DNA of 64,000 bases. Origin: Pseudomonadaceae bacterium (GTDB lineage Bacteria; Pseudomonadota; Gammaproteobacteria; Pseudomonadales; Azotimanducaceae). Made by a program: the position numbers and the translations under genes. The notes beneath the pieces are model-generated. The model saw only the letters and a program-made list of their open reading frames with translations, ran no database searches and was not told where the DNA came from. Shown here in pieces: positions 27,087 through 32,418 of the stretch. Positions within the stretch are counted from its first letter, which is position 1. Each line of letters opens with the position of its first letter. The stretch is from NCBI GenBank assembly GCA_024743175.1, contig JANSXA010000002.1, positions 310,001 through 374,000 of the forward strand, written 5' to 3'.

Positions 27087-28604
27087 ATGAAAGTCGGTAT
27101 CGCCATGATGAGTCACGAGACCAATACCTTTTCACCGGTCATCACCGACCTGGCTCGGTTTTCTGGTGGTCGCTCCGAACCTCTGCGTGGTGAGCTCGCC
27201 ATCAGTACCTATACCGGCACAGCCAGCTGCCTGGGCGGCTTCATCAAAGTTGCCACTGAACAGGGCGTAGACATAGAACATGGTATCGCAGCAGGCGCGC
27301 CACCCAGCGGTCCGGTAGAAAATGAAACCTTTGAATACATGTGTGATGCCATCGTCTCGCTTGCCGGTCGCGTAGATGCCTTATTGTTGGATCTGCATGG
27401 CGCCATGGCGACAAAAAGTTATCAGGATGGCGAAGGTGAGCTGCTGTCGCGGATCCGGGCAGCCCGCCCTGACCTGCCGGTCTGTGTGTCCCTGGACATG
27501 CATGCCAACGTCACAGAGAAGATGATCAACAATTGTTCGGTGCTGACCGGCTATCACACTTACCCGCACATCGATATGGATGCCACCGCTGAGCGTGGAG
27601 CAAAAGTGTTCTTCGACATGCTGGCAGGCAAGTGTAATCCGGTGATGCACTGGGAAAACGCACCTATGCTGCCTCATGTGATGCGACAAGGCACAGACGA
27701 TTTCCCGAACAACGCGCTGCAACAACACGCCATTGCATTGGAGCAGAGCGACTGCCTGGCGGTAAGCCTGTTTACCGGATTTCCCCATGCCGACATTCAA
27801 GACGCTGGCCTTTCCTGCGTGGTGATTACCGATGGTGATGCGCAAGCCGCCGCGCAACACACAGGGGAACTACTGGACTTCGCCTGGGCCGAACGACATA
27901 AGTTTGTTTACCAACCGGAAGCGCTACCTGATTCCATGGCGCGTGCACAAGCGAGCACAGAAGCGCCGGGAGAGGGTCCGGTAATTATCCTGGACCACTA
28001 CGACAACACCGCATCCGGCGGCACCATGGATACCACAGAAGTGCTCGCCGCGGTGCTGGATGCTGGTCTGGATGATGTTGCGGTGTTTGGATTCTTTGAC
28101 CCCGACGTGGTCGAGCAGATGATCGCAACAGGCGTGGGCAATGAAGTGACTGTGGAACTGGGTGGCAAGCTGCCCATGCCTGCTCTGGCAAAACAATCCA
28201 AACCTTTGACCCTGACCGGAGAGGTAAAACTGATCAGCAACGGAAAATTCAAAGCGCGGGTGGCCATGTCTCGTGGTTTGACCATCAACATGGGGCGCGC
28301 TGCGGTATTGAGCGTGGGCGGTGTGGATATCGCGGTGATTTCCCGGCACATCGAGCCTTACGATCCGGAGTGTTTTCGCGCGTTGGGCATGGAGCCGACC
28401 CAGCGCAAGTTCCTGATGCTGAAGAGCCGCATCCATTATCGCGTAGGCTTTATGCCCATCGCCAAAGAAATTGTGGAATGTGCTGGTGTGGGTGTGTGCA
28501 CGTCAGACTATGATCAGCTCACATTCGAGCATGTACGCCGACCGATCTTTCCCTTGGATAATCCCGGTAGTAACGCAGAACGTGTGGCGTATGCCGCAGA
28601 TTGA
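27087..28604 (+). CDS. M81 family metallopeptidase, MlrC-like
   Basis: A 505-residue protein of the M81/MlrC family. The N-terminal half carries the family motifs HETNTF (10-15), DLHGAM (102-107) and DMHAN (137-141), and the C-terminal half carries DHYDNTASGG (about 301-310). MlrC in sphingomonads cleaves linear peptides at the end of microcystin breakdown; the wider family occurs in many bacteria without microcystin genes, so here a peptide, amide or small cyclic amide substrate is possible. GGGAGG lies 8 bp before the ATG. It follows the acyl-CoA dehydrogenase by 26 bp. Confidence 0.88.
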   Translation: MKVGIAMMSHETNTFSPVITDLARFSGGRSEPLRGELAISTYTGTASCLGGFIKVATEQGVDIEHGIAAGAPPSGPVENETFEYMCDAIVSLAGRVDALLLDLHGAMATKSYQDGEGELLSRIRAARPDLPVCVSLDMHANVTEKMINNCSVLTGYHTYPHIDMDATAERGAKVFFDMLAGKCNPVMHWENAPMLPHVMRQGTDDFPNNALQQHAIALEQSDCLAVSLFTGFPHADIQDAGLSCVVITDGDAQAAAQHTGELLDFAWAERHKFVYQPEALPDSMARAQASTEAPGEGPVIILDHYDNTASGGTMDTTEVLAAVLDAGLDDVAVFGFFDPDVVEQMIATGVGNEVTVELGGKLPMPALAKQSKPLTLTGEVKLISNGKFKARVAMSRGLTINMGRAAVLSVGGVDIAVISRHIEPYDPECFRALGMEPTQRKFLMLKSRIHYRVGFMPIAKEIVECAGVGVCTSDYDQLTFEHVRRPIFPLDNPGSNAERVAYAAD

Positions 28605-28666
28605 GTCCAACAAGCGGGCGCCAACAGAAATCCATCCAAGATTCTGCTGGTGACGAGCGCCGAAGC

Positions 28667-31321
28667 ATGTCCCAGCTGAAACTGCTTGTCTCCCGTTACC
28701 GCAACGATTCGTCGCTGCACTTTAAGCTGTGGTGCGCTGTCAGCATTGGCCTGATACCCGCGATCATAACCGCAAATATTCTACCGATTGGTGGACTCAT
28801 GCCTGGCTTCGGCATCGAAGTCATCAATATCACGTACCTTCCGGGATGGATTTGCGGCCTGGTCTTCCTGATATCTGCTGCGATCTGCATCGTTCAGCGA
28901 CGTTACGGGTTAATCGTTTTGTTACTACCTTGGCTGATCATGTTTTTCTACGGCGCTGATGAATTGAATCTGCAGTTGCCGTCGCAGTGGGAGGTCAATG
29001 AGCGCATTGCGCAGGATCTGAAACAGGCCGGGGAGATCGCGGCAACGCCAGCGCCCACGACAGGAGACATAGAGGAAGACGACACGCCGAAGGACCCGGA
29101 GATCTCAAAATTTGATGTGATTCGCGCCAATCTTGATCAAATTGTTTTTGCCAATACCCCTTTGTTACAACTCGATAGGCAAGCCCTCAAAAACGACCTG
29201 GCTTTGATTGAAGAAAAGCTGGCCAACGCCACCCCGGACAATGAAAACCCTGCAGAAGCGACCTCGGTTCGACTGTTCAGCCTGAGATTGAAGATTGCCC
29301 TGGCAGAGACTCAGATGCAGCGCACCAGCCAAGCATTGCGTACCAGCAACGTGTTATCTCTGTTCAGTTTGGGCCTGTACGACAATCGCCTGGAGCAAAA
29401 GCTACGCCGGAGCCTGAAAAAGGTCTCCGAGCACCGTGATCAACTGATCTCCCAGCGCAATGCCCTTCGCGTCGAGCTCGAAGGCATCAACCAGGCTCAT
29501 GCCAGTCTGGCTGAGTTGCAGGCCATCGATGCGGCTGTCAGTTCCGGGCTGTGGGCGAGTCAGACTTACCAGGCCTGGCTTGTTACGCTGTTCTTCAGTT
29601 CGATCTGTTTTCTGGCGCTGATGTTGCTCGCCTGGAAATTCACGCTGGGCTCGTGGGTGTACCTGCTGCCTGTGTTTGGCTCAGTGTTAGTGCTGACAAT
29701 TTACGTCGATGCGCCACTCGTTTTCCGCCTCTGGGTGATCGTCAAATTTGTCATCGTTTCGCTGATCCTGCGTGCAGCATTTCTGCTGTACTCCGAGAAT
29801 TTTCCATTACTGCGGCGCCAGACGCGGGATTTTTTACTCCGCACCTCCAGGCAAACGCTGATTTACTACCTGCCCTTCATCATCCTGATCATCCTTGGAG
29901 GGGTCACGAAGGATCATCTGGATCAGCGATTCGACGACTGGCTCTACGGTCTTGCCGTTATGCAGAAGTCAGTGGAAGCACCCGATACCAACGGCAAATA
30001 CATCGATAATCATGCAGAAACTACTTTAAAACCAGACCGGGATCGTCACAGCCGTCGCGAGAATATCGACATTGCCATCGACATTCACTTCAAGGAATTG
30101 GAAGACAAACTGCAACAAAAACTCACCAGCCTGTCCACGCAGGCGGGCCTGACGACAGCGCAAGTTGCGAGGGAGACAGTCAGGTTTTATGAGGAAACCA
30201 TTGTCGAAACACTTCCGGAAGTCGACGCGGAACTCGATCCTCCGGGCTGCCGGGGCTTTCTGCCATGGGTGTTCAAGACCGGCCAGTGTGCCGAAAATGC
30301 CGTTCTGGAGCCGCTCAACGAAGAGTTCACCGACACTCGCAACGATCAGCGCGACAGCCTGAAGCAAACCACCAGTCTGTACGCGGACCGGGTCGGCAGT
30401 GACGCGCAAAAGGCGATCGCGATCGCCAGAGAAGATTTAAGCGGGCACATGCTGACGCTCGAAGAAACGATAAAAACGCAATTGGATTATATTTACACGG
30501 TAATTGACTTCTTCACCTGGGTATCGCTGCTGATGCTGATCATGGTCATCGTGAAGAGCTTCATGTACATCTTCGCGCGGATCTTCTTCGCCGGCGAAGA
30601 AGACCAGAAGCGCGTCATCCAGTTCGAGCCTACCGCGCAACCCCTGCAAGGGGGGCTGATCGATGAAGTGTCCGATACGCTGACACTGACCGAAGATAAA
30701 GGCGCCTATTTTTACGTCAACAAGGCTTATGACTTTGCCAACGCCCCGCCTGATGAATTCACACCCCAGGCCTCCAAGGCTGTCTTTTCCAGGTTTAAAA
30801 ACGGTGTCTGGCACCTGAACAGGATTCGTGCCGCAAAGTCGAAGGACGCTGACGATGTCCCCTATCGTCGCATTCCAGATGACGAGCGGGTTGTCATCTG
30901 GACGCTGAAACCCGGTGATGCGGTTGTGTTCTCCTGGAAGACTTTTGTCGGCATGAGCGACAGCATCCGTATTCGTGCCCAGTACAGCTGGCAACTGTCG
31001 TCGCTGGTGTTCGGCCGCATGTTTTACGTGGTTGCTACTGTTGATGCCGATTCCCCCGTCGACGGCACGCTGTTACTGGTTGCCCGCGGTAGTGACGGAA
31101 TCCGGGAAACCACCAGCCCCAGCAACTCTCCGGACCAACTGCTCGCCTGGCAAACCACCAGTCGATTTCAGTTACGCGCCAGCCTCAGCCTTCGTAATGT
31201 TTACCGCAGCGGTATCCAGATCAAAGCCTGGGATTCCGATCTTGCGGTCATGCATTTAAGCGACAAGACACAGAAAACCGGCGCCGCGGCATTCCTGAAA
31301 TATTTTCTGATGCCTGTGTAA
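28667..31321 (+). CDS. Large multi-pass membrane protein, unrecognised
   Basis: An 884-residue protein I cannot place in a named family. Three N-terminal membrane helices (about 17-40, 55-76, 80-96) are followed by a Pro/Thr/Asp linker and coiled-coil helices (about 160-290, e.g. KLRRSLKKVSEHRDQL), a cluster of about four helices (300-420), a charged segment of about 190 residues, one more helix (about 610-640) and a C-terminal soluble beta-rich domain (about 655-884). That last domain contains GDAVVFSWKTFVGMS and FYVVATVDADSPVDG, faintly like AIM24-type beta domains. I prefer the ATG at 28667; a TTG at 28601 would add 22 residues. An OmpA-domain gene follows by 14 bp, so the two probably work together in the envelope. 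Confidence 0.75.
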   Translation: MSQLKLLVSRYRNDSSLHFKLWCAVSIGLIPAIITANILPIGGLMPGFGIEVINITYLPGWICGLVFLISAAICIVQRRYGLIVLLLPWLIMFFYGADELNLQLPSQWEVNERIAQDLKQAGEIAATPAPTTGDIEEDDTPKDPEISKFDVIRANLDQIVFANTPLLQLDRQALKNDLALIEEKLANATPDNENPAEATSVRLFSLRLKIALAETQMQRTSQALRTSNVLSLFSLGLYDNRLEQKLRRSLKKVSEHRDQLISQRNALRVELEGINQAHASLAELQAIDAAVSSGLWASQTYQAWLVTLFFSSICFLALMLLAWKFTLGSWVYLLPVFGSVLVLTIYVDAPLVFRLWVIVKFVIVSLILRAAFLLYSENFPLLRRQTRDFLLRTSRQTLIYYLPFIILIILGGVTKDHLDQRFDDWLYGLAVMQKSVEAPDTNGKYIDNHAETTLKPDRDRHSRRENIDIAIDIHFKELEDKLQQKLTSLSTQAGLTTAQVARETVRFYEETIVETLPEVDAELDPPGCRGFLPWVFKTGQCAENAVLEPLNEEFTDTRNDQRDSLKQTTSLYADRVGSDAQKAIAIAREDLSGHMLTLEETIKTQLDYIYTVIDFFTWVSLLMLIMVIVKSFMYIFARIFFAGEEDQKRVIQFEPTAQPLQGGLIDEVSDTLTLTEDKGAYFYVNKAYDFANAPPDEFTPQASKAVFSRFKNGVWHLNRIRAAKSKDADDVPYRRIPDDERVVIWTLKPGDAVVFSWKTFVGMSDSIRIRAQYSWQLSSLVFGRMFYVVATVDADSPVDGTLLLVARGSDGIRETTSPSNSPDQLLAWQTTSRFQLRASLSLRNVYRSGIQIKAWDSDLAVMHLSDKTQKTGAAAFLKYFLMPV

Positions 31322-31335
31322 ACGGAATACAGCAC

Positions 31336-31977
31336 ATGAAAAACTACCTGATTGTCCTCGGCTTTATCATCACTGCATTCGCACTGTACCTGATCTGGGG
31401 GAACCTGAATGCTCAGATCGTCGTACTCGAATCCGCAACCGGCAGTTACATCTATACGGAGGATAACGACACCCTGCTCGACCCGTATGATCCCGAGCTC
31501 GGTGCGCTGCGCAATCAGCTGGCGTTGTTACAGGAAGCGCAATCCACCAATGCGGCGGCCATTGAGAACATCCTGCGCAGATTGGAAAGCCTGGGTGACG
31601 GAGCCTGTCGTGAGGCCAGATGCGCCAGCGAGATTATACGTCGTGAAATCATTCATTTTGCCCATGACAGCAGTGCATTGACGTCTGAGAGCATGCAGAA
31701 GATCGACGATCTGCTTACAGGCATGCGTGACAGCTCCGTGGTGAGTCTGCGCGGCCACGCAGACACCCGCGGAGACAACCAGTACAATCAGCTGCTGTCA
31801 TTGCGACGCGCAGTTGCGGTCAAGCGCTATATGGATCGCAGGCGCAACACAGACAACCGCTTGCACAACCTGTTGATCATGGTTGACGGCATCGGCGAAG
31901 AATCGTCGATCAGGCCAACCGCAGATGAGGTAGAGGAGCCCTCCAACCGAGTCGTCGAAATACTGGTATACGAATGA
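31336..31977 (+). CDS. Membrane-anchored OmpA-domain protein
   Basis: A 213-residue protein with one N-terminal membrane helix (about 4-23), a short coiled-coil stretch (about 57-85), and a C-terminal OmpA-type peptidoglycan-binding domain (about 105-213). Domain markers are IIHFAHDSSALT, LRGHADTRGDNQYNQLLSLRR and EEPSNRVVEI. The helix is not followed by a signal cleavage site, so the protein is likely held in the inner membrane with the domain in the periplasm. Tight linkage to the preceding large membrane protein suggests it ties that protein to the cell wall. C97 and C101 (approx., CREARC) may form a disulfide. Confidence 0.85.
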   Translation: MKNYLIVLGFIITAFALYLIWGNLNAQIVVLESATGSYIYTEDNDTLLDPYDPELGALRNQLALLQEAQSTNAAAIENILRRLESLGDGACREARCASEIIRREIIHFAHDSSALTSESMQKIDDLLTGMRDSSVVSLRGHADTRGDNQYNQLLSLRRAVAVKRYMDRRRNTDNRLHNLLIMVDGIGEESSIRPTADEVEEPSNRVVEILVYE

Positions 31978-32037
31978 GCGTGTTTGTCCAATCCTATGCG
32001 GCTTTTTGTCGCTAAAACTATTTTACCCAGGGGAATC

Positions 32038-32418
32038 ATGTCCGAACCAGCACAGATGCTTATTGATGGTGAGTGGGTCAATCAGAACGGATCCACAGTC
32101 GAGTTGCGGGAGCACAATGGCGTGCTCAGTGGCCACTACCTCTCCCGCAAAGGCCGCTCCGCAGCAGGCAAAAAATATCCACTTTCAGGCATACGCAACG
32201 GCGCCGTATTGGCATTCCACGTAAACTGGCTGGATGAACAAGCCAATCTCGAATCGATAACATCTTTCTCAGGCCGAGTAGTGCTGGATGCCAGCAACGA
32301 GGCCACCATACACACTCTATGGACGCTGGTACGTCGCTGGGAGGATGAAGCGCAAACAAAAAATACCGGTGCGTGGAACGCTTTCCTGACAAATGCAGAT
32401 GTGTTTACCCGTATGTGA
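32038..32418 (+). CDS. Avidin-family biotin-binding protein without signal peptide
   Basis: A 126-residue protein spanning the whole avidin/streptavidin barrel. Aligned by eye to streptavidin, the biotin contacts are kept: N15, S19, Y34, S36, W64, S73, T75, W95, W113 and D121; the residue matching Trp92 is F77, as in avidin. Diagnostic strings are GEWVNQNGST, LSGHY, AFHVNW and TNADVFTRM. W113 is the tryptophan that in streptavidin reaches across to the neighbouring subunit, so a dimer or tetramer is likely. The ATG at 32038 is preceded by AGGGGA; no signal peptide is seen from it or from an in-frame TTG at 31984, which is unusual in a family that is mostly secreted. It lies 60 bp after the OmpA-domain gene. 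Confidence 0.9.
   Translation: MSEPAQMLIDGEWVNQNGSTVELREHNGVLSGHYLSRKGRSAAGKKYPLSGIRNGAVLAFHVNWLDEQANLESITSFSGRVVLDASNEATIHTLWTLVRRWEDEAQTKNTGAWNAFLTNADVFTRM

Follow-up and report, generated by a model that had tools for sequence, protein, structure and literature searches.

An avidin clade with a near-invariant charged lid and no signal peptide in one family of uncultured Pseudomonadales

The 64,000-nucleotide stretch of Azotimanducaceae DNA analysed here (the window) encodes an avidin, the only avidin match in its genome, which belongs to a coherent and, judged by gene starts, apparently cytosolic clade from one family of uncultured Pseudomonadales. The avidin family is already known, and selectivity for free biotin has already been proposed for other members; what is new is the clade with its near-invariant charged lid (Lys-Gly-Arg), and neither this lid variant nor its distribution was found described in the open literature searched. 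We infer that these proteins bind free biotin in the cytoplasm under a lid that would favour a free carboxylate and would thereby buffer or store biotin, a reading judged evenly poised between right and wrong. The features on which the analysis is based are listed in Table 1.

Table 1 Features of the avidin locus, in window coordinates. Residues following an equals sign are numbered as in streptavidin.
Feature	Position	Strand	Remarks
Avidin-family open reading frame	32038..32418	+	126 aa, ATG to TGA, no signal peptide
AGGGG, ribosome-binding-site-like	32029..32033	+	Putative, by reading the sequence
OmpA-domain protein gene	31336..31977	+	Pfam OmpA, E 3.2e-12; N-terminal hydrophobic segment
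N-Q-N-G-S, residues 15-19, with the N23 and S27 equivalents	32080..32094	+	N and S in 44/44 clade sequences
Loop 3-4 lid, S36-R-K-G-R40	32143..32157	+	[ST]xKGR in 43/44 clade sequences, 0/39 other avidin rows
Trp64 = W79	32227..32229	+	Clade: W 16/44, F 28/44
Trp95 = W108	32320..32322	+	44/44 clade sequences
Trp113 = W120	32374..32376	+	44/44 clade sequences
Asp121 = D128, ureido nitrogen contact	32398..32400	+	44/44 clade sequences

The window protein matched the Pfam Avidin profile (PF01382) with an E value of 4.3e-19 and 69.4 bits, against a cut-off of 24 bits, which bears out the family assignment of the initial annotation. A sequence search of the PDB placed shwanavidin entries first (3t2w, E 6.5e-12), followed by entries for streptavidin, afifavidin and rhizavidin. 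Structure prediction, one of the checks proposed in that annotation, gave a confident model with the avidin beta-barrel, matching the streptavidins, and a non-avidin fold did not appear. Foldseek with this model returned shwanavidin at all of ranks 1 to 15, shwanavidin being the nearest relative both by this measure and by sequence; it belongs with afifavidin, rhizavidin and agroavidin to the short avidins. Against the NCBIfam streptavidin equivalog (NF047623) the protein scored 31.2 bits, far under the 300-bit cut-off, and it is therefore an avidin and not streptavidin proper.

Residues were aligned with the streptavidin sequence. The window protein keeps N23, S27, Y43, S45, W79, S88, T90, W108, W120 and D128, and the nearly complete biotin pocket described earlier is thus upheld, all ten residues then named aligning with streptavidin contacts; the five ureido contacts (N23, S27, Y43, S45 and D128) are all identical. 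The position of W92 is occupied by Phe, again as first described and as in chicken avidin, whose Phe79 stands at this position according to a passage of PMC5398887 on bradavidin Trp75. W120, with which Trp113 aligns, is the residue that in streptavidin extends into the pocket of the adjacent subunit (PMC7385176, in part). Avidins are dimers or tetramers, and in many of them a Trp is shared in this way. The complete set of ten contacts occurs in only seven of the 44 full-length clade sequences, that of the window among them, which places the window protein among the most streptavidin-like of the clade.

The lid differs from that of streptavidin at two positions that had not been remarked on before, Val47 being replaced by Lys38 and Asn49 by Arg40. 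In the closed lid of streptavidin, Val47 and Gly48 touch the valeric chain and the backbone of Asn49 touches the carboxylate, while the side chain of Asn49 is bonded to Arg84 of loop 5-6 (as set out in parts of PMC7385176). Arg84 is Ala69 in the window protein and its loop 5-6 slice holds acidic residues, at least one such residue being present there in 43 of the 44 clade sequences; on these grounds Arg40 may either bridge to loop 5-6 or contact the carboxylate. The window protein further differs from streptavidin in being shorter between strands 4 and 5 and longer in loop 7-8. A disulfide in loop 3-4 marks the dimeric avidins of the rhizavidin type. The window protein does not have it, as it contains no cysteine and its lid reads SRKGR, in contrast to the cysteine-containing lids of shwanavidin and afifavidin; according to part of PMC7385176 such a disulfide is natural to several streptavidin homologues. 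The C-terminal peptide of bradavidin is described as an intrinsic ligand (PMC3344845, in part), whereas the window protein ends five residues past the D128 equivalent.

Both the pocket and the lid are near-invariant in the clade. N23, S27, G48, W108, L110, W120, D128 and the Phe at W92 are present in 44/44 sequences, the position of S45 holds Ser in 41 and Thr in three, and the lid has Lys at position 47 in all 44 and Arg at position 49 in 43. The near-invariance of N23, S27, W108, W120, D128 and the lid Lys and Arg supports a free-biotin binder. Other contacts are looser: Y43 is Tyr in 11 sequences and Phe in 33, Ser occupies the S88 position in 32, and Thr the T90 position in 20. As Y43 and W79 are often Phe, many members of the clade may bind with modest affinity or have a different ligand. 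The single exception to the lid Arg, with Leu in its place, is the full-length member of two avidin copies lying about 1 kb apart in one genome (G557:C112, L086), the other copy being short.

A hydropathy heuristic (10 residues with a mean of at least 1.8; not SignalP) found no signal peptide from the ATG of the window gene, from a second in-frame ATG that precedes it by 14 codons, or from a TTG at 31984, in agreement with the initial annotation as regards the ATG and TTG. Four bases separate the AGGGG from the ATG at 32038, and this supports the ATG as the start. A start codon lies 0-6 residues ahead of the domain in 43 of the 44 clade sequences; the remaining one is an open frame without a usual start codon. 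The scan was positive for two of the 44 clade frames (L084 and L094, where the hit depends on GTG codons and an ATG lies closer to the domain) versus 22 of 37 other avidin rows, a set that includes the duplicates L025/L056, L038/L048 and L040/L125 and some partial genes. The 39 rows used for the lid motif (Table 1) are the same 37 with L108 and L109. The statement that known bacterial avidins are mostly exported was not supported: a survey with 118 analysed sequences predicted a signal peptide for about half of the putative bacterial avidins, as given in a portion of PMC8033661, and the scan revealed further signal-less avidins beyond the clade (the proteobacterial L118, L119, L121 and L122, and L222). 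Like the clade, these five have the start codon at strand 1 and no signal peptide; unlike it, they fall on separate branches of the tree and do not carry the K-G-R lid. One of them, L222:3001-3420, is a streptavidin relative encoded on a Streptomyces plasmid.

The window genome encodes 12 PF00364 domains, of which seven have a biotinyl-type motif (SMKM twice, AMKM four times and, by eye, AMKS once); hence the host cell uses biotin. The competition with biotinylated carboxylases that had been foreseen for a cytoplasmic avidin is therefore a real tension in principle, and the idea that the host makes no use of biotin, so that a cytosolic avidin would be harmless, which the lack of BirA and bioB matches had suggested, is ruled out by the same seven domains. 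One biotinyl domain stands alone as a 73-aa protein with an SMKM motif (G000:C1:42660-42851).

No match to BirA was found in the window genome, nor in 87 of the 206 genomes of its family (a count that includes it), and neither bioB nor bioA was above cut-off in the window genome. The usual position of birA is between the rRNA genes and tufB. Many of the BirA matches listed lie no more than a few kb from the start of their contig. In the window genome, contig C8 ends inside the 16S rRNA gene. Contig C6, according to peptide patterns and ARAGORN, begins within an EF-Tu gene, and its other end lies 309 bases beyond tRNA-Trp, close to nusG and rplK. The place of birA thus probably falls between contigs, and the likeliest reason for its absence is that the assembly breaks between 16S rRNA and tuf. 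In one genome of the family (G026) bioB adjoins birA, so the bioB of the window genome could lie in the same gap; such gaps could mislead automated biotin-pathway calls on assemblies of this kind. Among the 40 genomes of the genus bioA was above cut-off in one, which is not the window genome; this suggests, short of proof, that the host is a biotin auxotroph.

In the proposed role, the clade avidin would fold as the usual beta-barrel and most likely hold free biotin by the ureido contacts, with the charged lid (Lys38 and Arg40) probably closing on the ligand where its carboxylate lies; it would either touch the carboxylate itself or form salt bridges with an acidic loop 5-6. Such a lid would favour free biotin, which has a free carboxylate, over the amide-linked biotinyl-lysine of the carboxylases, and the protein could then buffer or store free biotin and leave the holo-carboxylases unpoisoned. 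In streptavidin, affinity drops for biotin conjugated to large molecules (PMC7385176, in part), and the idea that some bacterial avidins bind free biotin and not BCCP, sparing the cell, has been put forward for bradavidin and rhodavidin in a section of PMC3344845; the likeness to these two proteins lies in this proposed selectivity. The initial annotation argued that the protein has to be tuned or regulated, or else has another ligand; that necessity does not follow from the results, although the clade-specific K-G-R lid is a concrete candidate for the tuning. A stronger version, considered less likely than not, is that the clade consists of dedicated intracellular biotin buffers whose lid reads the free carboxylate and refuses protein-bound biotin; what they hold would then be free biotin, or perhaps biotinyl-AMP or another activated form. 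In favour of a free-biotin buffer are also the seven biotinyl-type domains of the host, the low dN/dS values and the greater frequency of bioB in clade-avidin genomes (the last two described below). Weighing against it are the replacement of Y43 and W79 by Phe, the confounding of the bioB association, the lack of bioB and bioA above cut-off in the window genome and the recurrent neighbours, which are not biotin genes (also below).

The purpose of bacterial avidins is treated as an open question in a part of PMC8033661, and the clade makes it directly testable by asking whether an avidin can tolerate, and discriminate against, the biotinylated proteins of its own cell. If the buffering role is correct, avidins would have a physiological, non-defensive function inside biotin-requiring cells, and a lid that selects for a free carboxylate, if real, would be useful in designing binders that are reversible or specific for free biotin.

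An avidin match is present in 51 of the 206 genomes of the family. The signal-less clade accounts for 46 of the 206; its sequence is full-length in 44 of these, truncated where the contig stops in G560, and a short frame close to the end of a contig in G559. The remaining five genomes comprise three congeners of the window genome, two with a signal peptide by the hydropathy scan (G011 and G059) and one with a signal-like start, by eye, that is broken by a stop codon (G029), and two genomes with longer proteins and a short avidin match (G426 and G435). In the three congeners (loci L010, L012 and L056) the avidin with the signal-like start takes the place of the cytosolic kind; within the genus, 7/40 genomes bear an avidin and none has more than one match. 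A sample of the class gave one match in 369 genomes, the window genome itself, and a sample of the order 26 in 390, family members counted in, while the clade profile matched 13 of 349 genomes of the phylum, all distant avidins except that of the window genome. A named-genome scan yielded 37 loci, 33 of which are in the model alignment, all from metagenome-assembled genomes that are largely those of the family set; by record label 35 are Pseudomonadales or Gammaproteobacteria, one is Proteobacteria and one Klebsiella. The last (L212, CAMAVY010000338.1) is labelled Klebsiella pneumoniae and carries a clade avidin; the label looks wrong.

All 44 clade sequences form one branch of the tree, from which other avidin rows under 27 bits were left out, with moderate support (81/92; 82% of 200 bootstrap trees). 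Genera are intermixed within the branch, which makes gene transfer or recurrent loss likely. No relative was found in the phage collection and none was confirmed in the viral-contig scan, and a phage or viral origin is thus not supported; 87 plasmid records contain relatives, every one less than 60% identical. In two other avidins (L039 and L043) the domain follows a long N-terminal region; they may correspond to the fusions with an aspartic peptidase that PMC8033661 describes.

Clustering of the neighbours within 7 kb of the 44 clade genes, or less where contigs end, ruled out a clade-wide gene neighbourhood, as no neighbour family occurs in more than five genera. Within genera there is recurrence: a macro-domain gene lies immediately upstream of the avidin gene in six loci of genus g24 (L054, L055, L099, L100, L101 and L102), ending a few bases ahead of it, and a nitroreductase-family gene immediately downstream in five loci of genus g31; both look co-transcribed with the avidin. 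Malate synthase G is encoded upstream on the same strand, one to seven genes off, in 12 loci of these two genera. These names come from Pfam assignment of two macro-domain, three nitroreductase-family and four malate synthase G proteins. No biotin gene is among these recurrent neighbours, and none of them is present at the window locus.

The patchy presence (46/206), the lack of a clade-wide neighbour and the mixing of genera are the pattern of an accessory gene, and as such would suit an ordinary signal-less avidin for defence, kept inside the cell and released by lysis or another route to starve competitors or grazers of biotin, with lid differences that reflect drift and an unchanged ligand. 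Defence is the role favoured by the authors of the survey, who, in the portion of PMC8033661 concerned, report no clear pathway association and an enrichment of two defence-related terms near avidins, and about half of the putative bacterial avidins are without a predicted signal peptide (same source, in part). Yet the K-G-R lid is about as invariant as the pocket (43-44/44), which is not expected of drift, and the phage and viral-contig searches also speak against this explanation; it is considered rather improbable, even if individual genomes may have a defence gene near the avidin.

An avidin scaffold with another ligand at Lys38 and Arg40, be it a biotin precursor (dethiobiotin), an activated form (biotinyl-AMP) or a different anionic metabolite, would account for the near-invariance of two positively charged residues where the carboxylate lies and for the frequent Phe at Y43 and W79. 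It would also fit the distribution of bioB, which was above cut-off in 27 of the 46 clade-avidin genomes versus 19 of the 160 others (206 genomes, partial bioB under cut-off in G557 and G474 being scored absent). In the 83 genomes of the four genera with most cases the overlap of bioB and avidin was 24, against 18.8 expected when shuffled within genus (p 0.0007) and 20.4 when size class was kept fixed as well (p 0.007). Genome size and kinship, the latter also below the level of genus, confound the association, and the window genome goes against the trend; it is regarded as a lead. Against a different ligand, between 41 and 44 of the 44 sequences retain each residue of the ureido set N23, S27, S45 and D128, which points to a biotin-like ring, and the window genome has neither bioA nor bioB above cut-off. 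This alternative is thought unlikely.

Selection was assessed in 14 hand-picked pairs among the 44 sequences, two of which were saturated. Eleven of the 12 computable pairs gave dN/dS values of 0.04-0.20 and one close pair 0.43; the clade avidin is under purifying selection in the sampled pairs. Together with the 44 full-length family relatives, the low dN/dS confirms, far beyond chance, that the reading frame is real. A decaying or non-functional relic, for which patchy presence, a handful of interrupted or shortened copies in other genomes (G559 and one of the two in G557) and the little-informative lack of promoter-like or terminator-like patterns could be cited, is highly implausible given the intact frame, the strong family match, the near-invariant pocket and these dN/dS values.

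No promoter-like or terminator-like pattern was found around the avidin gene, where shuffled sequences lead one to expect 0.6 and 1.0, respectively, so this result says little. The OmpA-domain gene lies 60 bp upstream; no functional link to the avidin was seen, and it is absent from the neighbours common to other clade loci. It begins 14 bases downstream of a gene for a 906-aa protein with hydrophobic stretches (28601-31321, + strand), which had no match at E 0.001 in Pfam, NCBIfam or PHROG, and the two genes look like one operon.
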